This document shows, piece after piece, positions 4,821 through 27,091 of a stretch of 30,066 bases of DNA (positions are counted from its first letter, which is position 1; the number at the start of each line of letters is the position of its first letter). The stretch is from a virus. A program made the translations under genes and the position numbers. Below the pieces are notes generated by a model that was given only the letters and a program-made list of their open reading frames with translations, was not told where the DNA came from and did no database searches. The DNA is taken from the IMG/VR virus record IMGVR_UViG_3300025322_000121, positions 1 through 30,066 of that record; one strand, written 5' to 3'.

Positions 4821-4837
4821 CGTTCATATTTTGAACA
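4821..4837. promoter_or_regulatory. Palindrome copy A (TGTTCA-N5-TGAACA family)
   Basis: CGTTCA-TATTT-TGAACA, one mismatch from the perfect arms. It fills the 28-base gap between the zinc-ribbon gene stop and the next leftward ATG. Its end is 9 bases from that ATG and it abuts the GGAG of the ribosome site. Read in the gene's sense it is TTTGTTCAAAATATGAACG, the same orientation and spacing as the other copies. Confidence 0.7.
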
Positions 4838-4839
4838 AA

Positions 4840-5121
4840 CTATATGCCGTCAAACCACGATGTCGTCCAACCATTCTGATTAGCTACGTCTTGAAAGTGT
4901 TTTTTATCTTTCAGCTTTATAGGTTTATCAGCGATGTGTTCATGTACAGCGTTACGAGGAAAGCCAGTACGAGGAAAAACCGTCATCGCAGATTCAAGAA
5001 CCTGGAGGACGATTCCGCCACACTGACAGAAAATTCTACTACTAATATTAGTATGTTCATGTATGGAAGCATGGATATCTTCTTCCTCACCGCAGCTGCC
5101 ACATCGAAACTTATAGATCAC
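4840..5121 (-). CDS. Zinc-ribbon protein (FmdB-like)
   Basis: A 93-residue protein starting MIYKFRCGSCGEEEDI, with CGSCG at 7-11 and a second knuckle CQCGG at about 33-37. The spacing matches a zinc ribbon of the FmdB type found in many small bacterial and phage proteins. The GTG start overlaps the portal stop (GTGA) and has GGAGG 7 bases upstream. The C-terminal half is Lys/His-rich and of unknown fold. It lies between the portal and scaffold genes, so a structural or assembly role, or nucleic-acid binding, is possible. Only the zinc ribbon is visible. Confidence 0.75.
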   Translation of the reverse strand: MIYKFRCGSCGEEEDIHASIHEHTNISSRIFCQCGGIVLQVLESAMTVFPRTGFPRNAVHEHIADKPIKLKDKKHFQDVANQNGWTTSWFDGI

Positions 5122-6848
5122 TGTTGTCCTCCAACTGGTCCTACTGGACCTTGTGTTAACAGTTGAGGATTACTTTGTTGGACATTCTGAACAAGTTGTC
5201 CCATCTGACCTACTGAAAAAGGTTGTTCCGGACTCATACCGAAACCTTGAGGTAACCCGCGGAGCATATCATCAAACTGAACACCGTGCATTTCCCGAAG
5301 AAGATATTGTGTCAGCTTGAAAGGATCAATCAAGGGATTGGTTGCAAGAGTCTGATACATCTTTAAAGCCTTAACTTCTCGCAACTCTTTAGTTTCTGGC
5401 AACGATTGATCTGGATCAGCTGAGACATTAAAACTAACCTTTTTTAACATCGTCGGCTTGAAAGCTATCCAAAAGGGTATACCAGCGGGCCCGATGATTT
5501 GTTCTACCTGCTCGTTTTTCCAGTGATCGAAGATGATAGGGTGAAAGTCTGAGACAACATCAACAAGTAAGTCTGCAACCATATCTCGTCGCTCATCGAC
5601 TCTGATTTCTGCCGCAGAGCTAACTTCATCAACCTCTGTGGCTGTAGGTGATCGGGACCCACTCTTAAACTCCCCAAACTGGTTCCTTCCGAAACCCAAC
5701 GATTCCCGTACATCATTTTCTGCCAGCTGTTGACTAGTAACCAGACCTTGAGGAATATCCGCAGCAGTTATTGTATTAACTACAGTACGCGGATCACCAT
5801 CTACCCAAATAACCGGACTTACATCTGGACTAACTAGCTTTAATGCCTCCTCCTCACTTAAAGCATTTCTACGAACCAGTAATCGTGCAAGTGTCAAACG
5901 TCGATGATACATCGTATACGTACGAATCTCATTTAACTCCATCTGAAGAGGTTCGAGGATTTGTGAATCCGGGATACCCCAAAATCTCTCATCGTCGTCA
6001 TTAAAGACAAGTGTACTTGCTACGTTTATCTTTAATCTAGCAAATTCGTCAGTTTCGAAAAGTAACGTCTTTTCTTTTAAATTCGGACAGATGACAAAAA
6101 CCATACCTGTTTTCTTGTCTCGAATCTCGTAAAGGTCAATCATCGGAACTGCATCTTCTGCAGTTTTGCTCATCTTCATAACGTCGGTTTTGTTCGGACC
6201 GAGATTTTTAGCATTCTTAAATCGTGGGTCTCGCTGTACGTCCTCTAACGGTCGACGAATCAAAAAACAAGTCCAACGTGCATCTTCAATATACTCTGTC
6301 TCTGCTGGTACAACAAAGGTCTTCGGTGGCGCCCGTAAAAACCAGGGCATATTATTCATCAGATCATAATTATACTCGATATATTCATTCTGTCCACCTG
6401 GCGTCCCGGCATTAGGAGGAGACGTATCTCCAATAGGCTCTGGCGTACTCTGAAATTGTGCTCCAAAGCCTTTCTTACCAATCGCAGTACCAAACATCCA
6501 AGCATCTTGAACCATCCTTTTCATCTGCTTTTTAACCTTCATCGAACGAATCATTTTATTGTCTGTTCGTTCTAGCAACTTAGCAAGAATTGCATTCTCA
6601 ATACCGGGCATTGTTGCGACTATAGAGATACTAGGATTTCTAAAATAGATTCTTGGTACAGTTGTTCGAATCATCTTAAAAAACACATTAGTAGGAAGTA
6701 CTCCGTCTGCCCACTCACCACGATAATATTGACGCCAACGATCCCAACTAGCTTCAAAGGCAGATTTTTTACGATACTCGAGACCGTGTCTAATCTGCCT
6801 AAGCCAATAGGAGACTTCTGGCTTACCTTTACTATAACCTTCAGGCAT
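5118..6848 (-). CDS. Portal protein
   Basis: A 576-residue protein. The chosen ATG (MPEGYSKGKPEVSYWLRQIR) overlaps the upstream stop as TGATG and has GGAAG in front; a TTG five codons earlier is the alternative. Helix-rich N-terminus with WDRWRQYYRGEW, a following wing segment, then the stem and crown part with NEIRTYTMYHRRLTLARLLV (about residues 305-325) and SRSPTATEVDEVSSAAEIRV (about 400-420). The latter resembles the conserved TATE segment of P22/podovirus-like portals. The Gln/Pro-rich C-terminus (VQQSNPQLLTQGPVGPVGGQ) is flexible. The portal forms the dodecameric DNA channel and docks the terminase. Position between the terminase and scaffold/capsid genes fits. Confidence 0.88.
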   Translation of the reverse strand: MPEGYSKGKPEVSYWLRQIRHGLEYRKKSAFEASWDRWRQYYRGEWADGVLPTNVFFKMIRTTVPRIYFRNPSISIVATMPGIENAILAKLLERTDNKMIRSMKVKKQMKRMVQDAWMFGTAIGKKGFGAQFQSTPEPIGDTSPPNAGTPGGQNEYIEYNYDLMNNMPWFLRAPPKTFVVPAETEYIEDARWTCFLIRRPLEDVQRDPRFKNAKNLGPNKTDVMKMSKTAEDAVPMIDLYEIRDKKTGMVFVICPNLKEKTLLFETDEFARLKINVASTLVFNDDDERFWGIPDSQILEPLQMELNEIRTYTMYHRRLTLARLLVRRNALSEEEALKLVSPDVSPVIWVDGDPRTVVNTITAADIPQGLVTSQQLAENDVRESLGFGRNQFGEFKSGSRSPTATEVDEVSSAAEIRVDERRDMVADLLVDVVSDFHPIIFDHWKNEQVEQIIGPAGIPFWIAFKPTMLKKVSFNVSADPDQSLPETKELREVKALKMYQTLATNPLIDPFKLTQYLLREMHGVQFDDMLRGLPQGFGMSPEQPFSVGQMGQLVQNVQQSNPQLLTQGPVGPVGGQQ

Positions 6849-8023
6849 CAGATATACTTCCAATCTTCTAACTTACTAAAGAACGGATGTGCAAGCCCAA
6901 GTAAGTTAGAGTTATAATGTTTCTCAGGATACTTTACATTCTCAACAGTAGCGTAGACTCGATGAGTTGAATCAGCGAGGGTAGGACCATGAGCGCTAGC
7001 AGTAAACACAACAGAACCACAAGCCAACCGATACGTATCCGCATCTCTCCCAACAGAGTGAAAGACCATGTGTTTTAGTCTCTCGTTGTTTATACCTAAA
7101 ATCGGAGCACCCTCCAATCCAGTTTCTGTGCACAAACTCTGAACCACAGAGACATAGTCTTTTGTCTTTTTAGGCTGAAAAGTTGATCCTAAAGCAACAT
7201 TATGTAAGAATTCACCAAGTTCATCCTGAACAAATTCTAACATAGTATAAGTCAATGGATACTTAAAACCAGCATAGAAACGAGTACACAGAATCTCTGA
7301 TTTTCCCACAGCGATTTTAATATGAACAGGCCCATGATATTCCAAAGTCTTTAAGAGGGGTTCCAGTTTAAAAATTGTTTCAGTTACGAATCGATGATCT
7401 ATTGGAAGTGGGTAAGCTACAGCATAATTATACAGCTTTCCTGAAATATCCGGAGAAATAGAAAAACTATCTAACCATCTAATTCCGTTAAACCAACCAG
7501 AAATCTGATATTCCACACCGGTTGAAGTTTTTTGAAATACGATCTTTTGATCTAACGATACCTTAGTCATACCCCAGGAAAGCCAGTCCTGATAATTACA
7601 GTGTAACTCTACTGCACCATATTTGATAGTTGTTTGTCGAGCCTCCCAATCAATAGCACCTTCAAACATTTCTCCGATATCGTTGAAAACTTTAGTTTCT
7701 GGAGTTAAAAGCCCAAATCTTTGAAACAACTCATACTGTCTATACGCATCGACGTTCGCAAGTTCAAGGATGGGATGTGTACCGATAGCGATTCTATTAT
7801 AGAACTTTAATTTATCATGAAGCTGTGGCCAACCGGTACTATCAGTTATAACAAACTTAACATCCTTTAAACTGTCCCAAAGATTTGCACTCTTTTTAAA
7901 TATTCCGCTGTGGGATGATAGATCTATTTGTGTCCCATACACAGTTACGTCATGACCTTCTTGAACTAGCCGATGTGCTAGTCCGAAACCCTCACCAGTT
8001 TTCGTCAGTAATAGAATATTCAC
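6848..8023 (-). CDS. PurD-like (GAR synthetase) ATP-grasp protein, catalytic motifs degenerate
   Basis: A 391-residue protein aligned by eye to phosphoribosylamine-glycine ligase over its length. An N-terminal Rossmann-like segment (MNILLLTKTGEGFGLAHRL) comes first. The ATP-grasp entry follows (VDAYRQYELFQRFGLLTPET, 91-110, like the PurD segment before GIPT). A GVEYQISGWFNG stretch (169-180) matches the PurD GEE region. The C-terminal GARS_C-like part has EGAPILGI (304-311), a VFHSVG segment and STHRVYATVENV (352-363). The glycine-rich GKGV loop expected after IKYG (133-136) is absent. The metal-binding E-x-N-x-R-F-G-D-P-E signature is replaced by LCTRFYAGFKYP (245-256). The GTG start overlaps the terminase stop (TAGTG), with AAGGTGG upstream. 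It may be an altered ligase or a pseudoenzyme with a packaging-related role. Confidence 0.75.
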   Translation of the reverse strand: MNILLLTKTGEGFGLAHRLVQEGHDVTVYGTQIDLSSHSGIFKKSANLWDSLKDVKFVITDSTGWPQLHDKLKFYNRIAIGTHPILELANVDAYRQYELFQRFGLLTPETKVFNDIGEMFEGAIDWEARQTTIKYGAVELHCNYQDWLSWGMTKVSLDQKIVFQKTSTGVEYQISGWFNGIRWLDSFSISPDISGKLYNYAVAYPLPIDHRFVTETIFKLEPLLKTLEYHGPVHIKIAVGKSEILCTRFYAGFKYPLTYTMLEFVQDELGEFLHNVALGSTFQPKKTKDYVSVVQSLCTETGLEGAPILGINNERLKHMVFHSVGRDADTYRLACGSVVFTASAHGPTLADSTHRVYATVENVKYPEKHYNSNLLGLAHPFFSKLEDWKYI

Positions 8024-9594
8024 TAAGCCACCTTATGTTGTGCAGGAATCGGAAAACGTCCCGGACCTCGACGACCGAACTCTTTCAATATACCATCCAA
8101 AGAAAACGGGTCAGGCACCGCGGAGCCCATAATACTGCGAGCAACCGCTATATCTCTCAGATGCGCTTTCCTCGCTCCCATTAGGCACACCGCAGTAGCC
8201 ATAACCCGGTCATCAAAACAACCTGCCTCTGCTTCAAGCTTTCCTTCAGAGGTCTCGACGAATGTAGCTAGCTCGTCCTTGAGGGCGGGGGAACAAATTG
8301 TAAAGCCCTCAGTGAACTCATGTCGCAAGTTGTTAATCAGTAGCGGTTTTGTTTTACTTGTCGTTCGATAACCATATTCTAACACTTTGTCTGTGTCTTG
8401 ATCGTGAGAATACAACAAGCTTTCATTATACTCTTTCTTTAGTTCTAATAGTGTCATACCTCCGTGATTGTTGCTTTCAACAGTTATGAAGGCTCCACCA
8501 AACATCTCACCGATATATCTCAGTTTGTGAGCAAAATTATCCGGAGCTACACTATCCGAAACATACTCTCCAACTTGTTTGTTTAAATTCAAGTTTATGA
8601 TAGTTGCCACTGACCGATCTCTACCAACTCCAGCCGCCACATCCGCACCGATAGCATATTTATAGTGTCGTATAACTGGTAGCTCATCAGTTCTAATCCA
8701 GAGATTTGGATCAACTCGTGTCCATGAAACTTCCGGAACGTAATTAACAAGTGGGAACAAACTATAGCCGGTAGCCTGAAAACACTCATCAAGAGTTATT
8801 GGATACTCTTGTTTGAATAGTCTCAGGTCATAATCCAGCTCTTCAAGTTTCTCCCGTCTCCAGGCAATCTGCTCGAGGTTAAGTCCAAGTTCTTGAACTA
8901 AATGCGGCTCTTCCCAATCATCCCTCAGATGATTTCCAAGTTCCTTTTTTTGTTCTGCGTTGAGGGGAACTCGATATTCTTGAAATTGTAACCAGTTAAA
9001 GAAGTGTAACCGAAAACGTGATTTACCCTCGTAGGACTGAACACATCCACGATGATAGTAGTTACCTACTCCATTTCCAGTAGATTCTTCTAAAATCTCT
9101 CCTGAACGCGGCACAGCCTGATATAAACCTGCAACCAAAGTTTTCGGATCAGGCCAAAAAGCAATCTCGCTACAATGAAGATTAGTAATAGTATCACCGC
9201 GACCAAACTTACGAGCTCCCGCAGTACCGATATAGAACATAGAGTTAGTTTTAGGAAAACTAATCTCATTGCGGTTAGCAAGTTTTTTCGTTGCAGCAGG
9301 ACCCTTGACGTTATCGAGAAAGTAGTGTACTCGAGCGAGCATTCGTTGAGTTGATTCTTTATCATGCGATATGACGACGGCCCGAGTATTTTTGCGATAA
9401 AGACACCTAGCCGTGAATCTGGCAAGTACATAACTAGAGATTCCTAATTGCCGCGCTTTGGGTACTCTATCTCGACCAGTTAAACGAGCGTCGAGAAGAG
9501 CTTGCTCACGGTTGAGTTTAAAATCCACGTCGTTTCCAGCTTTATCTGGAATCTTAAACAACGTCTCGATGATAGCGCGTTCAGGTGTTGCCAT
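8023..9594 (-). CDS. terL: Terminase large subunit (packaging ATPase/nuclease)
   Basis: A 523-residue protein. N-terminal ATPase: a Walker A-like KARQLGISS (46-54), Walker B strand with acidic residues in CSEIAFW (141-147), and a coupling motif ESTGNG (170-175). C-terminal RNase H-like nuclease: first catalytic Asp in IGADVAAG (Asp318), Glu373 in VESNN, and the last acidic pair CFDDR (Asp461/462). It pumps DNA into the prohead through the portal and cuts the concatemer. It is flanked upstream by the adsorption protein (TAATG overlap) and downstream by the PurD-like gene. The length is normal and all key residues appear present. Confidence 0.95.
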   Translation of the reverse strand: MATPERAIIETLFKIPDKAGNDVDFKLNREQALLDARLTGRDRVPKARQLGISSYVLARFTARCLYRKNTRAVVISHDKESTQRMLARVHYFLDNVKGPAATKKLANRNEISFPKTNSMFYIGTAGARKFGRGDTITNLHCSEIAFWPDPKTLVAGLYQAVPRSGEILEESTGNGVGNYYHRGCVQSYEGKSRFRLHFFNWLQFQEYRVPLNAEQKKELGNHLRDDWEEPHLVQELGLNLEQIAWRREKLEELDYDLRLFKQEYPITLDECFQATGYSLFPLVNYVPEVSWTRVDPNLWIRTDELPVIRHYKYAIGADVAAGVGRDRSVATIINLNLNKQVGEYVSDSVAPDNFAHKLRYIGEMFGGAFITVESNNHGGMTLLELKKEYNESLLYSHDQDTDKVLEYGYRTTSKTKPLLINNLRHEFTEGFTICSPALKDELATFVETSEGKLEAEAGCFDDRVMATAVCLMGARKAHLRDIAVARSIMGSAVPDPFSLDGILKEFGRRGPGRFPIPAQHKVA

Positions 9595-12500
9595 TAGACT
9601 GGTTTACGAATTAAGTATGGAGCCTCATCAACTCGATTATGTGCTAAAATACTATTCCAACCTTTCATAACTCCGATAGAACAATACGTTCCACGTTTCA
9701 ACTGGTTATATTGTGAACCACCGTGAGTATTAGTTATCCTAGTTCCGACTAATGAATAACTGGTAAAGCTTAACTGATTAGAAGCTGTAAGATCTAAATC
9801 TAACCGTGCAATCTTTGTCGCTCGATCAGCTGGAACAGGATACTGCGGATTCGGAGCTGAAACATCTAGAACCCAAGCAACATCAAGTTCCTCATCATAT
9901 ACTGTTCCCGGACCAAAAGCGTTAACAAAACCATCAGTTGCCCCAGTTCCAGTCCAACTGATAGAAGAAGATGCGCTAATACCATTAAAGGTTACAATAC
10001 GAAGAGCTGAAGTTAGGGAGCCAAAAACTACAAGTCTATGCCTACGAGGATCGTAGAATCCGCCAGCAGCAGCGGCCCCGCTAGATGACACAGTAGAAGT
10101 ATTACCCGTCGCTCCCCAGTTGTTAGTAATTAGATTAAATACTCCCCACTTACCTATTCCAAGTCTTACACAAAGAATAACATCAGGATAGGCAGGGTCC
10201 CAGCAGATAAAGCTTGCATGTTCACTATCAGTAGTAAAAGGACCAAGACCATGACTTGTATAAACTTCAGTAACCGGATTAAAAGATCGTAAACCAATTA
10301 CATCAGCACCAGAACCTAGAGTTCCCGATCCGCCGAGAATAAACAATCTACCATCTGGTACTCTAAGTTTACCATTATAAGTATGAGTGGCAGACCAGCG
10401 AACTTTACTATCACCACTGTCTGCGCCATACAACATACTAGCAGTAGCACTAACACTGTTTAACCCTGTAGGACCGTCTATGTGAGTCCAACCGGTTGGT
10501 TGTGTAATTCCGTTAGGATCATATACAGCTACTTGACTATTAAACGCTGATGCGTGTCCACCATCTCCACCTTGATAACAGAATCGAGTAGCATAATCCC
10601 AGAAGAATGAGCACCAGGGATTCATTAAATCTCTGCCATCATTACTTCCACTACTTCCTAATTGAGCGGGAAGTATACAATCAATAAGACGTGGTCTACT
10701 ATTCGCGGCACTGTCCAACCTAACTACTTGACCAAGAGTAGTTGGCACAAAACTAGGAATACCGTACTTCGACACCGGTGGAGCTAAAAACCCTGGGGCA
10801 GGATTACCTGCATCGCCATCTCTTACAATAACTTCACCCCAATATCCAGCTAGCTCTGTATTAAGTGGAGAACCTGTATTTGGTATACGAGCAGTGTTAA
10901 AAAACGTTAACCAAGCAGCAGAGATCTTATGTGTCCCTTGCGGATTTGAGGCAGGATCGACGTCACCAACATAAGGATAGGCATCGTTAACATTACCAAC
11001 AGTATAATTTGTAGTATCTATCCCAAGAGTCAGATTATTAAATTCATACAGCTTGTATTTGTAATCATCTCCCTCAAGAGCAACCCAAACTTCAAGTTCA
11101 GTATTCGGTTGCCCCCAAGTACCAATCTTAACTCGAATCTGTACGTTTATCCAATCATTTGCACAGTCTCGACTCCACATGATACCGCCCGACTCTCCGG
11201 TATCAGAGCCAGGAACTGGAAGTTGTCCAGGATTGACATTTACAAAGCCATAAATTCCACCATAGCTACGACGAAGTCCAAGAGATCCACCGACAGTCGG
11301 ATCCTTTCCGGCTGGTTGAGTGGCGATGGAAGTATGCAAGATCGCAGGCTGAAATACGACATCATTCGGAGTACCTAAAAATCTTTCCCAAGGCTGAAAA
11401 CCTGAATTATTCTTATGATACCCCATAATATAGTTACGATAACTCTGATTATTGATAACTATCTCATGTTCTGTTGAACTCTTAAACCAATTATCAAGAA
11501 TTAGAATCTTCCAACCGCCACTACCAGTAGTATGACTATTTCTGTTTTCAGCTAATTCTGATGGAACTCTAATCCTAAAATGCGCCCAAACTGTTTCTCC
11601 CGGACCGTAGCCATCAAGAATTCCAGTATGTGCATCATTGAGCTTTCTAACCCAATTCATTCCACCTTCGCCAATACTAGCAGGAATGCGAAACTTCATA
11701 CAACCTGTATAACCGGGAATTCTAATAATCTCATCTGCATGATTCTCATCTACCCATTGAGCCAATGTAGGATCAGATTGGTAAGTAGAATTATGAAACA
11801 TATAATCATGAACTTCAGCATCAGTTGCAAAGTTCGTAGCCATACGAACCCGACCTAATCCAGAACGTCGTACAAAATCTGCTTGTTCATCAGTTAGAAT
11901 TACCGCTGCCGCAATGTTGATAGACAGTGTTCCACTATTTACACCGACCCCAAGACTATCAGTAGCCCGCAGAACAAAGTTCGGATTCTGAACTGTTGTT
12001 GGAGTACCTTGTACAAGAACACCAGAAAGACTTAAACCGCTTGGAAGAGTGCCAGAGACTAAACTCAAGTTGTACGGTGATACACCACCGGTAATAGTTA
12101 CACCTTGTGAATATGCTACACCTATTGTACCATCGGAAAGGGAGGTAGTAACGAATATCATAGCGGCTGGAGCTACAACAAGCGTAAAGGTACGTTCAAC
12201 AAATCCACTATCGTCAGTTATTCTAGCAACAACAGTTGGACTTCCATGACTTCCAGTTGTCGGAGTTCCGGTAAGTGCTCCAGTTGAGGAACTCTGAGAT
12301 AACCAAGCCGGCTTAGTAGGAAGAGTATATACCTTAGTTCCACTACCACCAGTGCCGATTATTGACTGTCCAGTGTAGGCTGTTCCAACAGTTGCGCTGG
12401 CAAGAGCTGCGGTAGTTATCTCTAACGTTGTACCAGCCTCAATAACTTGAACAGTAAGTGTAGCTAGATCATAAAATCCCGTACCATCCTCAACAACAGC

Positions 12501-15293: not shown

Positions 15294-17258
15294 TTACATC
15301 CCGTCCACAACGCCGCCAGTACCGTCGCGAATGTCCCAACTAACCCCATTCCACTGCGGCCAGCTCACAGTACCAGCGTTATAGGCATTTACACGTTCAA
15401 CCGCATTACCCGCAGTCGCATCGACCGGCAGCGCATCTGCAATCGTGATAACGTTGCCCGCCGGAGCCCCGACTTGCGTGGTGTAGTGCTTATACGGAGT
15501 GCCATCAATTGAAGTGGTATTAAGGGTCACCATGATGAGGTCGTTAGCCGTAAATCCGGTCGCATCATCTAACGTGATAACAGTATCAGTAGCTACTGCT
15601 CCACCACCTTGAACCGTAGCCTGTCCGGTAACTCCAGTCGCCATCTCACGTGTGAGCAGGCAGGGATACCCACCGAACGCACCCGCCGACATATCCACAG
15701 AGGGCGCGTTAACAGTCACACCGTCCAACCCGTTTGTCAGGCGGACGTGTAATCGAACTCGTGCGGCGGGCGGATTCGCTACAAAACCACCGTCCGCGTT
15801 GTCCACATCAATCGTCGGCAAGTCCACCGTGACGCCGTTCATCGAATCGACGATGACTGCATCGCCACCGCAGGTGCCCCAGATGTGATGACACTGATGC
15901 CCGCCTAAATTACCGTCCGCAGCATCCCACGCGGTGTAACCGCCACCGCACCAGAAATCAACCATGTTGCCACCGACTTTGCCAGAGCCGCCTTCCTCGC
16001 CGCCGCCGTTGTAACGACAGACCACACCCTGCAATGGCTGTTGGAATTCGTAGGCATCCTCGCCGCATTCATCGACCCAATTACCCTCGACAACAAACCC
16101 CGGTCCCGTGCGATAGAAAAACATCACTTCATTTCCGGCCACGACCTGCGTCGGGTCGCGGGCAATCCGATTGAAGCGGAAAGAGCAATCGCGGGTGTGA
16201 TTAACGTCCGTGTTGGATGACAGCCCCAGACAAAGCATTTTTACGCCCGACAAGCGTCCCGCTGCGGCCATTATGTGGTTGTGCTCAACAGTCAGATTAC
16301 GGATCGAGCGCGTGGCGGCGTTGCTGTTATCGGTCATGCCGATAATGGCTGAATTCGATGAGATGGTGCCGCAGCGCACGCGGTTGTCGCGGATCAGGAC
16401 CGGCAATGTCCATGCAGCCAGCAGGACGCTCTGCGACAACGGCAGGACACTGGCGAAACCAGCGGCGTCGTTTGTGTTCACATCGCCGCGCTCGATCGTC
16501 AGCGTAGTCGGCTGGGTGAACCAGCACAGCGGGCCGGACCACGATGCGCCTGCCAGCGTATAGCGTTGAAACGAGAAACTGCCACCAGCAGCCGTATTAC
16601 GAAACAGTCCTAAAACATAGCCATAGCCAACAGCCGAGGAGACACTGAAGTCCTGAAGATCGACAACAGCATTCGCTCCATCCTTCAGCACCCAATTATC
16701 ACTGCTGAGCGCGGAGATCAGATCGTAGCGCGACCGATAGGTTCCAATGGTGACCTTGACATGAGCGTCCTGCGTCTGCGAAGCATTGTTCCAGCGGTTG
16801 TGCTGGGTGGTAACCCCACCGGCCATTTCCACAATGCTGAGACAGCCAGTCGGGTTGCCGCTCCAGTCGCAATCCACAAACTTCACCCAGTAGACTTCCG
16901 CAGTGGCATCACTGAAGGTCACCGCAAGGCCCGCTGTGTCGAACAACTTGTTAGAAATGACGTATGGATCGGCTTCACTATTCCCAGTGCCGGTCATGCC
17001 GGGGAAGTTCGTGGTATTCATGTCGGTGCGGGCAGCGACTACAATTGCACCGGAAATCGTTGCCGTCGTCGCAGTGGTGAGACCCGGCGTCTCCGCGGGG
17101 TCGTAGCCGGGAGTCACCCCCGGAGTGATGCCGGCGTTGGCGCGGACGAATTCCTCGCTGTAGCCACCACTATATGGAAAACCTATAGCTAAAGCTAACC
17201 CAAGCATAAGCTCTGGATGCTTTAATTTTCCTAATGGGTTATGACGATCAAAGAGCAT
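15294..17258 (-). CDS. Tailspike 1: chimeric beta-helix protein with phage-type N-terminal anchor
   Basis: A 654-residue protein. The first ~33 residues (MLFDRHNPLGKLKHPELMLG, then LALAIGFPYSGG) are encoded by AT-rich DNA. From about YSEEFVRANAG onward the DNA is strongly GC-rich to the stop codon. The large middle is an Asn/Gly/Val/Asp-rich right-handed beta-helix (IRNLTVEHNHIMAAAG; DCSFRFNRIARD; GFVVEGNWVDECGEDAYEF), typical of glycan-binding or -cleaving tailspikes. The C-terminal ~130 residues (ATVQGGGAVATDTVITLDDA) are a beta domain ending in NGVSWDIRDGTGGVVDGM. The short conserved N-terminus is probably the virion attachment peptide. The ATG abuts the previous stop (TAGATG). Enzymatic residues cannot be picked out with confidence. 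Confidence 0.8.
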   Translation of the reverse strand: MLFDRHNPLGKLKHPELMLGLALAIGFPYSGGYSEEFVRANAGITPGVTPGYDPAETPGLTTATTATISGAIVVAARTDMNTTNFPGMTGTGNSEADPYVISNKLFDTAGLAVTFSDATAEVYWVKFVDCDWSGNPTGCLSIVEMAGGVTTQHNRWNNASQTQDAHVKVTIGTYRSRYDLISALSSDNWVLKDGANAVVDLQDFSVSSAVGYGYVLGLFRNTAAGGSFSFQRYTLAGASWSGPLCWFTQPTTLTIERGDVNTNDAAGFASVLPLSQSVLLAAWTLPVLIRDNRVRCGTISSNSAIIGMTDNSNAATRSIRNLTVEHNHIMAAAGRLSGVKMLCLGLSSNTDVNHTRDCSFRFNRIARDPTQVVAGNEVMFFYRTGPGFVVEGNWVDECGEDAYEFQQPLQGVVCRYNGGGEEGGSGKVGGNMVDFWCGGGYTAWDAADGNLGGHQCHHIWGTCGGDAVIVDSMNGVTVDLPTIDVDNADGGFVANPPAARVRLHVRLTNGLDGVTVNAPSVDMSAGAFGGYPCLLTREMATGVTGQATVQGGGAVATDTVITLDDATGFTANDLIMVTLNTTSIDGTPYKHYTTQVGAPAGNVITIADALPVDATAGNAVERVNAYNAGTVSWPQWNGVSWDIRDGTGGVVDGM

Positions 17259-18254: not shown

Positions 18255-18592
18255 CGCTGGGTGGGCCCCGCGTGCATCTGGGAAAGTTTTTGCATAAAGA
18301 ATTCGTCCAATATCTTCTTGAGTGTATCTCTACTTTCGATCAGATGATCGGTCTGTGTTTTTTTCTTTGGAAGACGCCTCCTAGTCTCTGGGTCGTATAC
18401 TGGCATATTATCTTGCCGATCATTTATCCCCTCTGATGATAGTTGCATTTTAAGGTAGATAAGATCCTCTATCTCTTTGAGTTTAGACTCTATAGCCGGA
18501 ACCATATTGTCTGGGAGAGTAGTTGGAAACCTCTGCTCGTCCCAAACAGACGATCCGAGATTTTTATCATTCCGTTTTGGGTCGTTAGGCAT
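18251..18592 (-). CDS. Hypothetical helical phage protein
   Basis: A 113-residue protein. Polar N-terminus (MPNDPKRNDKNLGSSVWDEQ), then a helix (MVPAIESKLKEIEDLIYLKM, about 30-50), a basic linker (RRRLPKKKTQ) and a second helix (RDTLKKILDEFFMQKLSQM). The start ATG lacks a recognisable Shine-Dalgarno sequence. Instead the palindrome B ends 3 bases before it. It lies between holin and terminase genes in the late operon. No function is assigned. Confidence 0.62.
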   Translation of the reverse strand: MPNDPKRNDKNLGSSVWDEQRFPTTLPDNMVPAIESKLKEIEDLIYLKMQLSSEGINDRQDNMPVYDPETRRRLPKKKTQTDHLIESRDTLKKILDEFFMQKLSQMHAGPTQR

Positions 18593-18595: not shown

Positions 18596-18612
18596 TGTTC
18601 AAATTTTGAACA
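18596..18612. promoter_or_regulatory. Palindrome copy B (TGTTCA-N5-TGAACA)
   Basis: Perfect arms TGTTCA-AATTT-TGAACA in the 25-base gap after the holin stop, ending 3 bases before the next leftward ATG. In the sense of the gene it reads TTTGTTCAAAATTTGAACA. It occupies the position where a ribosome binding site would be expected. Confidence 0.75.
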
Positions 18613-20029: not shown

Positions 20030-20422
20030 ATGCAAGCCATTAAACGAGCTGGTGCGAGAACCGATACTATCGTGAATGAGGATACTCGCATTGCTACAGT
20101 ACATCACTTCACAGAGCATGATTCGACTGTGAAAGATGAGGGGTTTCAGTTCACAACCTATCTGGACTTCAACGGTGTGACACTGGCGCAACTAATTGTG
20201 CTGGCCTCTCAGACCGTCATTATCCGGGCGAGGTCGAAGATGGGTTTCCGAACCTTGGACCCGGATAAAACCAACAACATGACGATAAAGGTCAAGGACT
20301 TCTTGGTCGGATCGAAGGCTCGAAACCCCGAGAAACTCGCGGACCGCGCTAAGAAGGCACTCCAAGCTCTTGGAATGACTGAAGATCAGATTGTCGAGAC
20401 CCTCGAGAACCTAAAGAAGTAA
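20030..20422 (+). CDS. Monocistronic early protein, unknown function
   Basis: A 130-residue protein. Mixed N-terminal part with beta strands (FQFTTYLDFNGVTLAQLIVL, about 47-66; TVIIRARSKMGF), a basic middle (RTLDPDKTNNMTIKVKDFLV) and a C-terminal helical hairpin (ADRAKKALQALGMTEDQIVE). GC-richer and with stronger codons than the small genes that follow. It has a good ribosome site (TTAGGAGTTACCATA) and a strong terminator right after its stop. That isolation and the strong signals suggest high, independent expression, as for an abundant DNA-binding or host-takeover protein. No family is recognised. Confidence 0.75.
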   Translation: MQAIKRAGARTDTIVNEDTRIATVHHFTEHDSTVKDEGFQFTTYLDFNGVTLAQLIVLASQTVIIRARSKMGFRTLDPDKTNNMTIKVKDFLVGSKARNPEKLADRAKKALQALGMTEDQIVETLENLKK

Positions 20423-20433
20423 CTCAAAACTTG

Positions 20434-20527: not shown

Positions 20528-20544
20528 TGTTCAAAGTTTGAACA
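20528..20544. promoter_or_regulatory. Palindrome copy C (TGTTCA-N5-TGAACA)
   Basis: Perfect copy; with flanks TTGTTCAAAGTTTGAACAA is a 19-base palindrome around a single central G, the most symmetric of the five. It overlaps a possible -35 (TTGAAC) that has TATTAG 15 bases downstream, a weak promoter match. A repressor here could block the following early genes. Confidence 0.75.
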
Positions 20545-21763: not shown

Positions 21764-21781
21764 CCGACAAGAGGTTATGAT

Positions 21782-22048: not shown

Positions 22049-22058
22049 GAAGCTAACA

Positions 22059-22391: not shown

Positions 22392-22500
22392 CAAAACTGG
22401 TAAGACAATAAGTGTGGCTAGTACTTATGGGCCATACAAAGTAAGGCATGGAGAGAAAGAGTACATTGTCAATCTCAACGTGAACTTGAAAGGAAGCTAA
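22303..22500 (+). CDS. Conserved small phage protein, unknown function
   Basis: A 65-residue protein. The ATG is preceded by AAAGGAGACGTG, which decides this start over the GTG just before it. The segment LSLIVDLSKRLGPSKTGKTI, then ASTYGPYKVRHGEKEYIVNL, matches from memory a small protein recurrent in environmental phages and in bacterial phage remnants. SKTGKT superficially looks like a P-loop end, but the protein is too short for an NTPase. It overlaps the upstream gene by 89 bases. Confidence 0.65.
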   Translation: MNNPENVQSSVSPTGQLSLIVDLSKRLGPSKTGKTISVASTYGPYKVRHGEKEYIVNLNVNLKGS

Positions 22501-22501
22501 G

Positions 22502-22657
22502 ATGACTACTGAAGAACTGGAAGGACTATCCGAGCTGTTGCATAAAGATCCTCTGAGTCCGTTGGATCATCCGGAGGACGAGGAGGAAGATAACGATGAA
22601 GAAGAAGATGAGTTTGAGGACGACGAAGACGAGGATGATGAGGATGATGAGGACTAG
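22502..22657 (+). CDS. Poly-acidic miniprotein (51 aa)
   Basis: MTTEELEGLSELLHKDPLSP is followed by an almost pure Asp/Glu tail (about 25 of the last 29 residues). An AAAGGAAGC ribosome site sits at the end of the previous gene, and a terminator follows directly. Extreme acidity with a short amphipathic head is a feature of DNA-mimic proteins (anti-restriction, nucleoid or polymerase inhibitors), but also of simple charged tails. The low-complexity GA-rich DNA may hide this gene from automated callers. Confidence 0.65.
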   Translation: MTTEELEGLSELLHKDPLSPLDHPEDEEEDNDEEEDEFEDDEDEDDEDDED

Positions 22658-22671
22658 ATTGTAACACAACC

Positions 22672-22696
22672 GGGCGGGACTGCCAACCGCCCTTTT
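22672..22696 (+). terminator. Rho-independent terminator
   Basis: GGGCGG stem, GACTGCCAA loop, CCGCCC, then TTTT. It closes the run of small early genes 14 bases after the poly-acidic gene; the next gene's ribosome site follows almost at once. Confidence 0.85.
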
Positions 22697-22709
22697 CTAG
22701 GAGCGTAAG

Positions 22710-22874
22710 GTGAACAAAGATTATCTAGGCGACTCAGTTTATGTCGAACTAAATGAAGTTGGACAACTAGTTCTAACCACTGAAAATGGTTACGAGGCAT
22801 CCAATACTATATATCTCGAAGTAGAAGTTTTTGAACAATTGATAAAAATCGGAACCCGTTTGTTCAAATTATGA
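22710..22874 (+). CDS. Conserved small phage protein (54 aa), unknown function
   Basis: GTG start with AGGAG seven bases upstream. NKDYLGDSVYVELNEVGQLV, then LTTENGYEASNTIYLEVEVF, is a pattern seen in many short uncharacterised phage proteins: beta-rich, with a T-E-N-G turn and N-x-I-Y-L-E. Its TGA stop lies within palindrome copy D. The role is unknown; wide recurrence suggests a general phage function. Confidence 0.68.
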   Translation: MNKDYLGDSVYVELNEVGQLVLTTENGYEASNTIYLEVEVFEQLIKIGTRLFKL

Positions 22875-22877
22875 ACA
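22861..22877. promoter_or_regulatory. Palindrome copy D (TGTTCA-N5-TGAACA)
   Basis: Perfect arms TGTTCA-AATTA-TGAACA. It overlaps the stop codon of the preceding gene and ends 4 bases before the ATG of the next, which has no Shine-Dalgarno sequence. It reads TTTGTTCAAATTATGAACA in the direction of the gene. Confidence 0.75.
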
Positions 22878-22881
22878 TAGT

Positions 22882-23109
22882 ATGGACAACAAAAAGCTAA
22901 GATTTATCCTCAACGCGTGGGTTGCCGATACTAATGAACGTATCCTCCTTATAGAGAGCATCGTAAAAGATGAGTTCGCTCGTGGTAGCGTTTACGATGC
23001 CATAGTTTCTTACGCCGATCAGCTGAGGGTTACACTTCGAGCTGGTTTACATACATTAGATAAGTTGGAGAATCCCGATGGCTACGACGACGATAACATT
23101 AAGAATTGA
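22882..23109 (+). CDS. Small helical protein, unknown function
   Basis: A 75-residue, all-helical pattern: KLRFILNAWVADTNERILLI, then VKDEFARGSVYDAIVSYADQ and LRVTLRAGLHTLDKLENPDG. There is no ribosome binding site; palindrome D directly precedes the ATG. Its 3' end overlaps the next gene by 32 bases. It might be co-regulated with the ribbon-helix-helix-like protein downstream. Confidence 0.58.
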   Translation: MDNKKLRFILNAWVADTNERILLIESIVKDEFARGSVYDAIVSYADQLRVTLRAGLHTLDKLENPDGYDDDNIKN

Positions 23110-23698
23110 TCTATTAGCGGTTCTCTCTTGTGGAGACCTCTTAAAGAGGCAAGGCGTTGATACCAAGAGTCAACCAGTATCTACGACAGTACGTACCGCT
23201 CTTGAGGCTATAACCGAGTTAATGAGAAAGAACGGCAGTTTACCAATCTATCCAGAGCAAGAAGAATATCAGCTACAAGCTTACGAAGAGATGTTTGGAA
23301 AGACCCCGGTAATTGTCGATCCACAGATGGATTTTTCCGGACTATCTGAAGTTTTACAAAACAAGATATCTGGACAAGATTCTATTTCGAAAATCGCTAG
23401 TGAAGTTGACAATCGCTTGGGGCCACGCGAAGCGCTGGACGTGCGTTTATCCACTGAACAGAGCGAAACATCTGATATTGCCAAGATCAACATATTTGAT
23501 ATGTTCTCTAGTGATTTTGAAAACCTCGAGAAGCAAGCTCCCAAGGATAAGTATATTGAAATCTGTGGAGATTCTAAAACTCCTGATGTTTTACGTAAAG
23601 CTATTTGCATAACCTATACTACATTACCTGTAGATCAATGGGGAACACCGATCGCTGAACGCTTCATTAAGGCTCTTGTTGAACAACACAAGGAATAA
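23078..23698 (+). CDS. Protein with ribbon-helix-helix-like N-terminus, otherwise unknown
   Basis: A 206-residue protein. TTTITLRIDLLAVLSCGDLL, then TTVRTALEAITELMRKNG (residues ~3-53), has the strand-helix-helix spacing of ribbon-helix-helix DNA-binding domains, although longer than the classic Arc unit. The remainder contains an acidic, Ser-rich linker and a C-terminal helical part (TPDVLRKAICITYTTLPVDQ). TTGGAG lies eight bases upstream of the ATG. It could be a phage regulator and is a candidate binder of the dispersed palindromes. Confidence in the gene is high; in the domain, modest. Confidence 0.6.
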   Translation: MATTTITLRIDLLAVLSCGDLLKRQGVDTKSQPVSTTVRTALEAITELMRKNGSLPIYPEQEEYQLQAYEEMFGKTPVIVDPQMDFSGLSEVLQNKISGQDSISKIASEVDNRLGPREALDVRLSTEQSETSDIAKINIFDMFSSDFENLEKQAPKDKYIEICGDSKTPDVLRKAICITYTTLPVDQWGTPIAERFIKALVEQHKE

Positions 23699-23714
23699 TA
23701 AATGGTATAAAGAT

Positions 23715-23743
23715 TTGCATTGAAGATCAACTTGTGTTATTAT
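23715..23743 (+). promoter_or_regulatory. Sigma70-type promoter
   Basis: TTGCAT (-35), 17-base spacer, TATTAT (-10; five of six consensus bases). Transcription would start around 23750, at the base of the leader hairpin. Confidence 0.65.
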
Positions 23744-23751
23744 GCTTTTGT

Positions 23752-23768
23752 GGTAGGGGAAACCTACC
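23752..23768 (+). ncRNA. 5' leader hairpin
   Basis: GGTAGG-GGAAA-CCTACC, a 6-bp stem at the predicted 5' end of the transcript, ending 29 bases before the ATG. It probably protects the mRNA end. Confidence 0.5.
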
Positions 23769-23797
23769 CATTAACCAACTGACGAAGGAACTAGAAA

Positions 23798-24148
23798 ATG
23801 AGCGTAAAAGAAATTACGGCCCGAGTAGGTAAAGAGGAGAACGCCCCCAGCGTGACGGTAACGTACGATATGGGCGACAATCTCCCCGAGGCGATCGAAA
23901 AGTTTGGAGCCGACGTTGTCTACAAGCGTTTCGAACAGAGTTTGACAATCGAAATTCAGGCAATCATTCGCAGACACATGAGCGGCGAGAAGCCGAAGTC
24001 TGAGTCCGAGATTCAAGCCATCATCGCAGAGTTCTCTCCCGGTCTGCAACGTGCTCGCAAGACCAGCAAGGAAAAGGCTCTCGATCTTCTGGCCGATCTG
24101 TCAGAGGCGGATCGCGAGGAAATTCTCAAGTCCTTGGCCGCAGCCTAG
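23798..24148 (+). CDS. Monocistronic, probably highly expressed early protein
   Basis: A 116-residue protein. A short beta start (SVTVTYDMGDNLPEAIEKFG), a helical middle (VVYKRFEQSLTIEIQAIIRR), a linker with SGEKPKSESEIQAIIAEFSP, and a C-terminal helical pair rich in Ala/Lys (EKALDLLADLSEADREEILK). GC-richer codons than its neighbours, its own promoter, leader hairpin, GAAGGAACT ribosome site and terminator. It belongs to a type of small protein frequent in phages that I cannot name. An abundant accessory replication or DNA-binding role is possible. Confidence 0.75.
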   Translation: MSVKEITARVGKEENAPSVTVTYDMGDNLPEAIEKFGADVVYKRFEQSLTIEIQAIIRRHMSGEKPKSESEIQAIIAEFSPGLQRARKTSKEKALDLLADLSEADREEILKSLAAA

Positions 24149-24156
24149 CTACCCAC

Positions 24157-24189
24157 GGGGACAGGACTTCAAACTGTCCCCATCTTTTT
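24157..24189 (+). terminator. Rho-independent terminator
   Basis: GGGGACAG stem, GACTTCAAA loop, CTGTCCCC, then ATCTTTTTG. An eight-pair GC-rich stem nine bases after the stop codon. Confidence 0.93.
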
Positions 24190-24217
24190 GTTTTCTAATA
24201 GCTCAATTTCCCACAAT

Positions 24218-24487
24218 ATGACAGAACAAATAGACTACGAAGGCATAGTAGAAGCCTTTCGTGTACACCTCTGTGAGGCACTCAATCTTCAATTCTCACA
24301 GAAAGAAATTTATATATTCGAAGAACATACATTCAAGCTGTGTTCTCTGGTGATAAATGAACTTGAAAAGAGGTTACAATGCGATACTACGATAATACGC
24401 GAATCTCGGACTACAGAACCTGCCCAAGAAAATACTATTTCCGACACGAAAAAGGCTGGGTTAGAGAGGGAACCGCTATTGCCCTGA
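24218..24487 (+). CDS. Small protein overlapping the exonuclease gene, unknown function
   Basis: An 89-residue protein from ATG (MTEQIDYEGIVEAFRVHLCE), helical in its first 60 residues (QKEIYIFEEHTFKLCSLVIN). The last 36 codons overlap the downstream nuclease gene in another frame and look unstructured. The ribosome site is weak. Codon use resembles that of the neighbouring early genes. The gene is plausible because it bridges the terminator and the nuclease; no function is recognised. Confidence 0.5.
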   Translation: MTEQIDYEGIVEAFRVHLCEALNLQFSQKEIYIFEEHTFKLCSLVINELEKRLQCDTTIIRESRTTEPAQENTISDTKKAGLEREPLLP

Positions 24488-25341
24488 TTAACGGCCTAGC
24501 TTGGCACGACAGCATGGATGTTGTGTGGGCACGAGCTCATGAGGATATATCCGACGTTGAGTTAACCAAGGCAGCATTACAAGCCTACGTTAATACTTGG
24601 ACAGCCGAGGGATTACCACACTCTCGAGATATGACAATGGAACAGCAAGAGTTTTACACTCCTCGAGGTCCATTCATCGCGGCTGAAACTCTAATGCAGT
24701 ATGTGTTACAACGGAGGAGATTTATCCGTGATAGCGAGATACTGGCCATCGAGAGGCCATTCGCAGTACCGATATACGAAGATGAAACGCCAATCATGTA
24801 TATCGGTCGTCTTGACAAAGTCATCAGACACAAGCTCGAAGGTACTCTTATCGTGGAGCATAAAACTACCACGCAGTACTATAAGACCTCCGGTCTCAGA
24901 CAATCTTTCGTCGATAGCTTCTCTCCGAATTCTCAAGTGGACGGTTACCTTCACGCGGGTAATATCTTATACGAGAAGCTGAGAGGTGTTTGGATCGACG
25001 TAGCGGTATTTAATAAAACCCAGCACGACGCATTTAAGTTCTTACCAATAGATCGTCAGTATGCCATGCTTGACAGCTGGCTACATGAAGTTAAGAACTG
25101 GATCGAAAGGCTGGAAGATGATAAACAAAGGTATCCTGAGCACAAGCTCATGGGAAGTTATCCGAAAAATACTGATCGCTGCGGTGATTACGGGGGTTGT
25201 CCTTTTGTTGATGTCTGTAAGTTTTATGCTGATCCAGATGGGCTTGCAAGCTCTCCTCCGGGTTTTAAAGTAGACTTTTGGAATCCCTTTGATGTGTTGC
25301 ACTTAGACCAGGTTGGTCTTAAACCGGAGGGGACAACATGA
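24379..25341 (+). CDS. PD-(D/E)XK exonuclease with 4Fe-4S cysteines (Cas4/RecB-like)
   Basis: A 320-residue protein. The N-terminal SDYRTCPRKYY carries Cys15; C-terminal CGDYGGCPFVDVC carries Cys268, Cys274 and Cys280. This one-plus-three pattern holds a 4Fe-4S cluster in Cas4/AddB-type nucleases. The nuclease core shows His43 (LAWHD), Asp146 (GRLDK), Glu160-x-Lys162 (IVEHKTTT) and Gln186 (SQVDGYLHA). It should resect DNA ends to give single strands for recombination. AAGAGG precedes the ATG. It is followed within the same operon by a Sak4-like ATPase and an ssDNA-binding candidate, which fits a phage recombination system. Confidence 0.88.
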   Translation: MRYYDNTRISDYRTCPRKYYFRHEKGWVREGTAIALINGLAWHDSMDVVWARAHEDISDVELTKAALQAYVNTWTAEGLPHSRDMTMEQQEFYTPRGPFIAAETLMQYVLQRRRFIRDSEILAIERPFAVPIYEDETPIMYIGRLDKVIRHKLEGTLIVEHKTTTQYYKTSGLRQSFVDSFSPNSQVDGYLHAGNILYEKLRGVWIDVAVFNKTQHDAFKFLPIDRQYAMLDSWLHEVKNWIERLEDDKQRYPEHKLMGSYPKNTDRCGDYGGCPFVDVCKFYADPDGLASSPPGFKVDFWNPFDVLHLDQVGLKPEGTT

Positions 25342-25580
25342 AAGCAAGGTTACACGGTTACTGTGTGATTTTTGATAACGAGGATAAGGAAACTCCTGTT
25401 AAAACCTACATCCCTTTTAATCAAATAACCGCATTTGAAGCTAAAAAGCTACAAGTCAGAATCATCTCGCGTGGCGTAACCTGGGAGTTAAACTTTTCAG
25501 CTCAACGAACAGCCGATGATTTTGTGAACCGATTATCTCAACAGATGCGTTACTGCGCAATGGGAGCGCCTTGTGCCTAA
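25338..25580 (+). CDS. Small protein in the recombination operon, unknown function
   Basis: An 80-residue protein. The ATG overlaps the exonuclease stop by ATGA, with GGAGGGG upstream. Beta-rich first half (RLHGYCVIFDNEDKETPVKT; QVRIISRGVTWELNFSA), then a helix (ADDFVNRLSQQMRYC). It resembles a short pleckstrin- or OB-like barrel in strand pattern, but this is only an impression. It overlaps the ATPase gene by 8 bases, so co-translation with the recombination proteins is likely. Confidence 0.62.
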   Translation: MKARLHGYCVIFDNEDKETPVKTYIPFNQITAFEAKKLQVRIISRGVTWELNFSAQRTADDFVNRLSQQMRYCAMGAPCA

Positions 25581-26403
25581 CGCAAAAGACTTAGATTTGA
25601 CAAAATTGGGAAAGCCAAAATTCCTTCTGGTAGGTTCCACAGGATCTGGTAAAACATCTCAGATTCTTACACTACCAGGTAAGACTTTCGCATACCTATT
25701 TGATCCCTCCTCGTTGAGTACCCTACGAGGCTTTGACATAGAGTACGAGATGTTCGTACCGGAGGTAGTTAATCTTGCAGCACACTCACTCACGAAAGAC
25801 AAAGGCGATCAAAAGACTCAAATCGCGGATGCCCATGAAGTCTATAAAAAGTGGGAAAGTGACTACGAAGAAAAAGCTAAGAAGGGCTTCTTCACAAACA
25901 TCGACAACATACTATTCGATAGTTTTACCACGTTCGCAGATATTGTCATGGACCGAATCCTTTATATCAATAATCGAGCAGGTAGGTGGCCACAACAAGA
26001 TGACTGGACAGCTCAGATGTCGACAATTAGAAATGTCGTACGAACCCTTACCGGGCAGCAAGGAATGGTACTTGTTTGCACAGCTCACGATCAAATAAGG
26101 CAGGACGAAGTTACAACTCGCATTCTCAATCAGATTATGCTAACTGGACAGCTTCGTGCCAAGTTGCCGTTACTGTTCTCAGATATTTGGCACATGAGTT
26201 GTGACAGCAAAAAAGATGTTATCAAATACACGGCGCAGACCCGTCCGGACTTCATGAATCCCACCGTCCGGTGCAGCTTCCAAGACCTCGATATGTTCCA
26301 TGACGTTACTATCGGAGATTGGAAAAATCCACAGAACTTCGGTATTGGCAAGTTACTGAAGAATCGTGGTTACTACGCAACACAACAGGAGAAGGTAGCA
26401 TGA
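25573..26403 (+). CDS. Sak4-like RecA-fold ATPase (AAA_24)
   Basis: A 276-residue protein. GTG start with GGGAG upstream. Walker A GSTGSGKT (21-28), Walker B NILFDS (112-117), and a sensor-like VLVCTAHDQIRQDE. These fit the phage nucleotide-binding family AAA_24, whose members include Sak4, a RecA-core single-strand annealing ATPase that works with a phage SSB. Neighbours support this: a nuclease upstream and a DUF669-like protein immediately downstream (ATGA overlap). It probably promotes strand annealing in phage recombination and replication restart. Confidence 0.85.
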   Translation: MPNAKDLDLTKLGKPKFLLVGSTGSGKTSQILTLPGKTFAYLFDPSSLSTLRGFDIEYEMFVPEVVNLAAHSLTKDKGDQKTQIADAHEVYKKWESDYEEKAKKGFFTNIDNILFDSFTTFADIVMDRILYINNRAGRWPQQDDWTAQMSTIRNVVRTLTGQQGMVLVCTAHDQIRQDEVTTRILNQIMLTGQLRAKLPLLFSDIWHMSCDSKKDVIKYTAQTRPDFMNPTVRCSFQDLDMFHDVTIGDWKNPQNFGIGKLLKNRGYYATQQEKVA

Positions 26404-26795
26404 GTTTTATCGAACTTGGTGATCTAGGTGAAGTTAGAGAAAAGCAACTGTTGAAAGAGGGCCGATATACACTACTCGTCGAGAGCGCAAAAACCAAACG
26501 TAACGAGAAGAGCGGAAAGGATGGTATCTTGGTTATTCTGTCCGCCGAAGGCCAGGATAATACTGCCAATCTGTTGCATAACATTGCACTACCTCACGTT
26601 GATGACGAAAGTGAAACCAAGCAGTTCAAGATGCTAATGATCAAGAGATTTCTTGTTCAGTTTGGGATACCGTTCGAAGATGGTGTGAATACCGAGGCGT
26701 TCAGCGGTTCTCGAGGTGAGTGCAACGTGACTGTGGATGAGTACGAGGGTAGACAGAGTAACAAGCTAGTGCTTGACCCACTTCCTCAAAGTTAA
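26400..26795 (+). CDS. DUF669-like single-strand DNA-binding partner
   Basis: A 131-residue protein beginning MSFIELGDLGEVREKQLLKE and GRYTLLVESAKTKRNEKSGK. It has the G-x-Y ... K-x-T/G-K ... L-x-I-L-S pattern of DUF669, then FKMLMIKRFLVQFGIPFEDG and a final beta part RGECNVTVDEYEGRQSNKLV. DUF669 proteins are commonly adjacent to AAA_24 ATPases and are considered SSB-like partners. The chosen ATG overlaps the ATPase stop by ATGA, with AGGAGAAGGTAGC upstream. The SSB role is inferred from family neighbourhood. Confidence 0.78.
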   Translation: MSFIELGDLGEVREKQLLKEGRYTLLVESAKTKRNEKSGKDGILVILSAEGQDNTANLLHNIALPHVDDESETKQFKMLMIKRFLVQFGIPFEDGVNTEAFSGSRGECNVTVDEYEGRQSNKLVLDPLPQS

Positions 26796-26801
26796 CTTTA
26801 T

Positions 26802-26865
26802 AGGGCTGTGAACACTTGATAAGCCATTCTCCCCAATAGCCCAAGTTAGTAGCAGCCCTTCTTTT
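26802..26865 (+). ncRNA. Leader with two mutually exclusive hairpins
   Basis: AGGGCTG (26802-26808) can pair perfectly with CAGCCCT (26853-26859), which is followed by TCTTTT, like an extended terminator. Alternatively its GGGCT pairs with AGCCC (26838-26842). One 5' strand with two competing 3' partners is the form of an attenuator or riboswitch-type switch in front of the ribbon-helix-helix gene. Confidence 0.4.
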
Positions 26866-26875
26866 GGAAACCCCG

Positions 26876-27091
26876 ATGGATCATAGCACAAGAATCAGTA
26901 TCTCTATTCCCGATGATATGCATGACAAGCTAAAGAAGATGCTTCCCTGGGGAATAAAGTCCGAAGTGTTACGAGAATTAATAGCTACACTTATTAAAGC
27001 TCAAGAGGCTGACCAAAATAACTACATAGTGCAAGACCTACTTGATGGCAGGTGTTCGCTCGTTGTTCAAAATGTGAACAAACTATCATGA
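26876..27091 (+). CDS. Ribbon-helix-helix DNA-binding protein
   Basis: A 71-residue protein. STRISISIPDDMHDKLKKML, then GIKSEVLRELIATLIKAQEA, shows the beta strand (RISISIP), first helix (DDMHDKLKKM), the turn and second helix (KSEVLRELIATLI) of an RHH regulator that binds inverted or repeated operators as dimers. The ATG has TTTGGAAA upstream; an upstream in-frame TTG is less likely. The 3' end of the gene contains palindrome copy E, and the stop overlaps the next ATG by ATGA. Self-regulation, or control of the palindrome set, is a reasonable guess. Confidence 0.72.
   Translation: MDHSTRISISIPDDMHDKLKKMLPWGIKSEVLRELIATLIKAQEADQNNYIVQDLLDGRCSLVVQNVNKLS
27064..27080. promoter_or_regulatory. 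Palindrome copy E (TGTTCA-N5-TGAACA)
   Basis: Perfect arms TGTTCA-AAATG-TGAACA. It lies inside the coding end of the ribbon-helix-helix gene (codons for VVQNVNK) and ends 7 bases before the ATG of the next gene, which lacks a ribosome site. Confidence 0.7.

Follow-up and report, generated by a model that had tools for sequence, protein, structure and literature searches.

Dispersed odd palindromes as candidate cognate sites of a phage ParB-methyltransferase fusion

Introduction

The stretch of viral DNA analysed here (the window; all 30,066 nucleotides of it) carries five scattered copies of the palindrome TGTTCA-N5-TGAACA. What reads them, and what for? A preliminary description, made from the letters alone, likened them to the stoperators of mycobacteriophage L5, which are dispersed repressor sites near gene boundaries. 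It offered an RNA hairpin in place of a ribosome site as another reading and named two ribbon-helix-helix (RHH)-like proteins as candidate binders. We followed the palindromes into related phages and asked which shared protein changes when they change.

Results

Five palindromes in the window

The five sites were found again at the coordinates and with the mismatch counts first reported for them. The copy at 4821-4837 (CGTTCATATTTTGAACA) has one arm mismatch, and the arms are perfect at 18596-18612, 20528-20544, 22861-22877 and 27064-27080; none is assigned a strand. In full, the site is a 17-bp odd palindrome, TGTTCAAA-n-TTTGAACA. The preliminary description had called for a comparison with shuffled sequence, and at up to one mismatch the window holds five sites, whereas 100 dinucleotide shuffles average 0.10 and none reached five. 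Relaxing the search to three mismatches removes the excess (19 against 17.5), so the family consists of just these five sites.

Four copies had been described as lying immediately before start codons. The distances to the ATG (9 bases for 4821, 3 for 18596, 4 for 22861 and 7 for 27064) and the missing Shine-Dalgarno sequences at 18592, 22882 and 27088 are borne out by the letters. The closeness is real, but preceding stop codons are abutted or overlapped just as tightly. Site 4821 begins 2 nt past the TAG of gene 4840-5121(-) and lies 9 nt ahead of the ATG of gene 4536-4811(-), site 22861 contains the TGA of gene 22710-22874, and site 27064 falls within the 3' end of the RHH gene. Site 20528 occupies a non-coding stretch ahead of a rightward operon. 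Elsewhere in the window, a short ORF at 22502-22657 has a strongly acidic, D/E-rich product.

The sites are conserved in related phages

A motif-only scan of IMG/VR with the query TTGTTCAAANTTTGAACAA returned 12 stretches. Three long contigs among them, G003, G004 and G009, have 11, 8 and 5 dispersed copies, respectively, at up to one mismatch. By protein comparison these contigs are genuinely related to the window phage, as is G011, a contig with two copies: terminase identity is 52-55% in G009 and G011, and G009, G004, G003 and the window have a nuclease, an AAA protein, the ParB-methyltransferase and a polymerase in common. Because true relatives were retrieved with the motif alone, the motif predicted kinship.

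A terminase-profile (TerL) scan made without reference to the motif identified about 22 close relatives. Together they contain 13 perfect sites (0.08 for shuffled-arm controls) and 21 sites at up to one mismatch (1.1 for the controls). The junction of site 4821, after the small gene that follows a 581-aa gene, keeps a site in most TerL relatives that include this stretch (e.g., L134, L136/G009, L138, L139/G011 and L142). In L144, L147 and L148 the counterpart has the form TGTTCA-NNNNN-TGAACA, and the five central bases vary across relatives. L152 carries TGATCA-N5-TGATCA one gene farther on, with both arms changed. Site 22861 shares its junction with site 661 of G009, and site 27064 has counterparts at 7428 in G009 and 24567 in G004. 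Both sets of relatives, found by motif and by terminase, have sites at matching gene junctions. Chance frequency, lack of conservation and scattered positions, the three outcomes that the preliminary description had counted against the palindrome, were looked for and not seen. No near match was found in INPHARED, and IMG/VR scans with single proteins (15294-17258, or the fusion alone) found little.

At the G003 sites, such as the one at 11446, the palindrome reaches outward to about 34 bp with CGAGA...TCTCG flanks, which suggests a second contact beyond the core.

Relatives carry a family of odd palindromes

Relatives that lack TGTTCA have different odd palindromes, dispersed and built on the same geometry, for example TGTCCCAA-n-TTGGGACA, TGATCAAA and TGTAACAA; Desulfofustis phage LS06-2018-MD01 has nine copies of GTCCCAA-n-TTGGGAC. 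AATCAAA, ATTCAAT, GATCAAA, GTAACAA and more occur as further site types. A profile search with the ParB half of the fusion yielded 80 viral loci. De novo discovery against Markov shuffles covered 50 ParB-methyltransferase loci with at least 25 kb of sequence available; 33 of them had significant dispersed odd palindromes and 17 had no significant one. Nearly all discovered sites fit TG-nnn-nAA(A/T)-n. In Gordonia phage Nyceirae and Bifidobacterium phage Bbif-1, whose ParB-like protein has another architecture, the only palindromes were GC-rich and of low complexity.

G022, a more distant ParB-methyltransferase phage, shows a wider variant in the same layout: eight 19-bp odd palindromes, AAGGTCAAAAATTGACCTT, at 5645, 8430, 11466, 20155, 33017, 38944, 44001 and 47485.

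The ParB-methyltransferase fusion

The protein that we propose as the binder is encoded at 27326-28735 (+) and has 469 residues and a GTG start. It matches Pfam ParB_N (PF02195; 6.9e-14) and N6_N4_Mtase (3.2e-16). Residues 1-98 (27326-27619, +) form the ParB nucleotide-binding fold, in which R18, R20, G57, R59, R60, E92, N93 and R96 are invariant. Against the PDB, the ParB half finds ParB (6t1f, 7e-26), Noc and KorB (7e-10). The family traits are in place, namely the ParB_N fold with its nucleotide-binding boxes and a central helix-turn-helix at residues 125-151 (27698-27778, +), whose recognition helix starts at V136 (nt 27731). An AlphaFold2 model (mean pLDDT 85) places helices at 125-132 and 136-151, with block pLDDT of about 89-93. 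In alignment, V136 falls on R173 of Caulobacter ParB, the residue that switches specificity between ParB and Noc: at this position R or Q decides between parS and NBS, and Q173 goes with adenine (PMC7383237).

The C-terminal dimerisation domain of the ParABS ParB is absent, and an N6_N4_Mtase domain stands in its place. This beta-class amino-methyltransferase domain (residues 215-455; 27968-28690, +) has the fold of its class and a DPPY motif at 251-254, ahead of an FxGSG motif. The methyltransferase half, the only part used in the VIA-align comparison, scores Z 23.8 to M.BceJIV and 23.1 to CcrM. Across 32 sequences of the fusion, the nucleotide-binding arginines, E92/N93 and the methyltransferase DPP are invariant or nearly so.

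Site sequence tracks the recognition helix

Few protein families occur in most site-bearing genomes: a nuclease, an AAA protein, an SSB-like protein, the ParB-methyltransferase, a polymerase and a few small proteins. We slid a four-residue window along each protein and measured how well it tracked differences between sites once overall divergence was removed. Residues 136-139 of the ParB-methyltransferase, the first turn of the recognition helix, came first of about 420 sliding windows (p 0.001 for the single window and 0.008 familywise, in 30 phages). In phages outside the set in which the pattern was first noticed, these residues gave p 0.006; within that independent subset, however, six other windows score above them, so that the helix window comes 7th, and with 34 phages, four of them with doubtful motifs, the familywise p is 0.12. 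The other shared genes, RHH included, gave best familywise p values of 0.15-0.84.

Residue 136 differs between site types. V136 occurs in 8 of 13 phages with TTC sites and in 0 of 17 others (Fisher p 2e-4), Q136 in all three phages with A at that site position and in 0 of 27 others (Fisher p 2e-4), and K136 in 4 of 5 phages with CCC sites and in 2 of 25 others (Fisher p 0.003). Exceptions are P136 or K136 alongside TTC sites (L235, G003 and L265). Close pairs illustrate the pattern: G004 (VGAV, TGTTCAAA) and G013 (KGAV, TGCCCAAA) are 52% identical, and G016 (QSSV, TGATCAAA) and L209 (KSAV, TGCCCAAA), likewise about 52% identical, differ in both helix and site. At loci outside the fitting, 9 of 12 core-motif occurrences fell in the class predicted from residue 136.

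On a tree of the fusion minus its helix-turn-helix, site type changes 16 times against a shuffled mean of 16.8. Site type is therefore hardly clustered, and shared ancestry does not explain the match between helix and site. The two change jointly across the tree and are almost never opposed. Among independent pairs, three to six of six moved in the expected direction and TTC never in the opposite one; for V alone, there are too few pairs for the sign test to reach 0.05. This co-variation strongly suggests that a dimer of the fusion reads the half-sites through its ParB-type helix-turn-helix, and that residue 136 and its neighbours would set specificity, with a matched helix and site in each phage lineage. 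The palindrome is real, dispersed and conserved in relatives, and its binding by a protein, as the preliminary description supposed, is strongly indicated.

The two RHH-like proteins fare differently. That at 26876-27091 (+) is a weak Pfam match (17.6 bits; cut-off 20.5), and the product of 23078 has no RHH Pfam match. As a binder the 26876 protein is disfavoured: its best familywise p for co-variation is 0.68, which is no signal, and RHH is undetected in 7 of 30 site-bearing genomes. We rejected this RHH protein as binder, since site specificity does not follow its beta-strand whereas the ParB-methyltransferase just downstream does co-vary. The 27088 protein, the 20030/23798 family, the AAA ATPase, the SSB-like protein and the PDDEXK nuclease were likewise rejected for want of a co-variation signal. 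Queries 20030 and 23798 converged on identical sequences and count as one control; these two small proteins of the window (20030-20422 and 23798-24148) belong to one family with paralogues in many relatives.

A conserved 78-aa protein is encoded between RHH and fusion (27088-27324, +) and is present in 27 of 30 site-bearing genomes. The RHH and 78-aa genes (26876-27324) directly precede the ParB-methyltransferase in most relatives. Their products may be partners of the fusion, with a KorA-like role possible.

Sites are evenly spread and sit just after stop codons

Rule-based gene calls, which include some spurious small ORFs, label 91 of 200 sites as coding, so the position statistics rest on the other 109. 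In gaps between tandem genes, the site starts a median of 6 nt past the upstream stop (45 for random non-coding windows) and ends a median of 17 nt (mode 11-13) ahead of the next start (again 45). For most sites the distance to a start codon is 11-20 nt. That closeness comes mainly from sites tucked into minimal gaps after stops, clear of the ribosome site. Divergent gene pairs have fewer sites between them than expected (8 against 21), and convergent pairs have 10 against 11.5 expected. This layout fits minimal gaps after stops better than promoter operators.

Sites number 5-15 per genome with a mean spacing of 3-8 kb, spanning early and late genes. In 25 of 26 genomes the spacing is more even than that of random gene junctions (Fisher p 1.5e-16; 9e-12 under a stricter thinned null). 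Both nulls are built on junctions or thinning, as random-position nulls overstate evenness. The lone exception is the window itself, a fragment whose five sites have a CV of 0.87. Neither ParA (PF13614) nor tyrosine integrase (PF00589) was detected in any of 24 records, many of them possibly incomplete.

Discussion

We consider it likely, judging from co-variation and layout, that the palindromes are parS-like recognition and loading sites of the ParB-methyltransferase fusion. Conserved motifs suggest that its N-terminal ParB fold would bind nucleotide, close as a clamp, leave the site and slide. The sites would then be loading points from which a clamp bearing an adenine/cytosine-amino methyltransferase spreads over the phage's own genome, so that phage DNA might be marked or organised. 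The even spread every few kb across early and late genes, the lack of a partition ATPase in the 24 records and the apparent lack of promoter bias favour loading points. Sliding, methylation and the purpose of the fusion are hypotheses here; given the attached methyltransferase, the most parsimonious purpose, we infer, is that the phage marks its own DNA. More tentatively, and with somewhat less than even expectation, we picture an address system of lytic-type phages in which evenly spaced, lineage-specific sites recruit the sliding clamp and only the phage's own genome is marked.

The sites might instead serve long-range transcription control of the KorB type, with the fusion acting on them mainly as a repressor or silencer and RHH perhaps as a KorA-like, clamp-locking partner. 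Structures of KorB are among the matches to the ParB half, KorB itself works by sliding from operators both near and distant (PMC11790492), the RHH gene usually adjoins the fusion, and site 20528 overlaps a weak sigma70-like match. KorB-type operators lie at or upstream of promoters. Judged by gene orientation, in place of mapped promoters, the sites are too few in divergent gaps and show no deficit in convergent ones, and most are just 11-20 nt from a start. With spacing that stays even across late operons and methyltransferase residues that are strongly conserved, we regard this control as rather unlikely. Organisation, segregation or packaging, in which site-loaded clamps compact or protect phage DNA and methylation is secondary, would suit ParB family membership, even genome coverage and the apparent lack of promoter bias. 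It sits badly with the lack of ParA in the 24 records and with the retained DPPY motif and methyltransferase fold, and we regard it, too, as rather unlikely.

Dispersed gene-boundary sites that diversify among relatives, as in heteroimmune phages, recall immunity-repressor operators or stoperators under a small regulator, for instance the RHH protein. Even spacing, the deficit in divergent gaps and the absence of tyrosine integrase from the 24 records disfavour such an array, specificity tracks the ParB helix and not RHH, and this origin seems very improbable. RNA hairpins acting on translation would account for sites 11-20 nt ahead of start codons, but abutment on the upstream stop explains that distance equally well. 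Mismatches in the first pair are common (G003, G028), the centre is conserved as a palindrome, sites occur in convergent gaps and the co-varying partner is a DNA-binding helix; a hairpin that replaces the ribosome site is hardly credible.

The ParB-methyltransferase reading gains context from known systems. Like ParB-parS (ParABS), the phage pair combines a nucleotide-binding fold with conserved boxes, a helix-turn-helix and palindromic TGTT...AACA-type sites, and the residue equivalent to R173 varies. Unlike it, the fusion has a methyltransferase in place of the C-terminal dimer domain and no ParA was found; parS sites cluster at the origin, whereas the phage sites are odd-palindromic, evenly spread at 5-15 per genome and belong to lytic-type phages. 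Noc-NBS shares the dispersed sites and the pairing of Q at 173 with A (PMC7383237), as for Q136 here, but Noc works in cell division at the membrane and has no enzyme domain. KorB-OB of plasmid RK2 is a ParB-family clamp with several sites per replicon that loads and slides (PMC11790492); it represses promoters with KorA, whereas the phage sites show no evident promoter bias and the phage protein has an enzyme attached. The L5 stoperators are similar in being dispersed near gene boundaries and differ in binder, symmetry and lifestyle signals, the likely binder here being a ParB protein and no integrase having been found. The CI operators of TP901-1 and phi13, AGTTCA-N7-TGAACT as deduced from the mutant primers of PMC8516035, differ in spacer (5 in the phage sites) and outer base.

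The domain pairing itself is already known. As far as the accessible text of a 2025 survey goes, ParB-N6/N4-methyltransferase fusions with the pairing seen in the window are enriched in phages and prophages, are among the common ParB-fold fusions in phages and are of unknown function, and NTP specificity is not predictable from sequence (PMC12704722). That text gives no DNA sites for the fusions; cognate sites, a specificity pattern and spacing are proposed here. A Bacillus ParB-methylase that nicks nonspecifically is mentioned in an older review (PMC5512222). In a literature search with subscription papers and preprints outside its scope, no cognate sites turned up for ParB-methyltransferase fusions of phages.

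Now that candidate sites, a layout across the genome and a pattern that predicts specificity are available, ParB-methyltransferase fusions become open to direct tests. The binding proposal predicts that the fusion favours TGTTCAAATTTTGAACA over TGCCCAAATTTTGGGCA and over a scrambled site. If the address system is true, the label is a self-label addressed by sequence, and its code, from helix residue to site base, is legible in the genome. This suggests a possible viral means of aiming an enzyme at its own DNA, and the natural series of orthogonal ParB-site pairs could be of use in DNA labelling or loading.

Dispersed palindromes also occur in the record L342 (ON073792.1), deposited as Aphanizomenon 'phage' Yong-DA. 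Six dispersed copies of TGTTCAGACATCTGAACA, at 3726, 15524, 19737, 31875, 38137 and 42293, accompany a ParA/ParB pair, and there are no annotated virion genes; Yong-DA has the look of a cyanobacterial plasmid that was filed as a phage.
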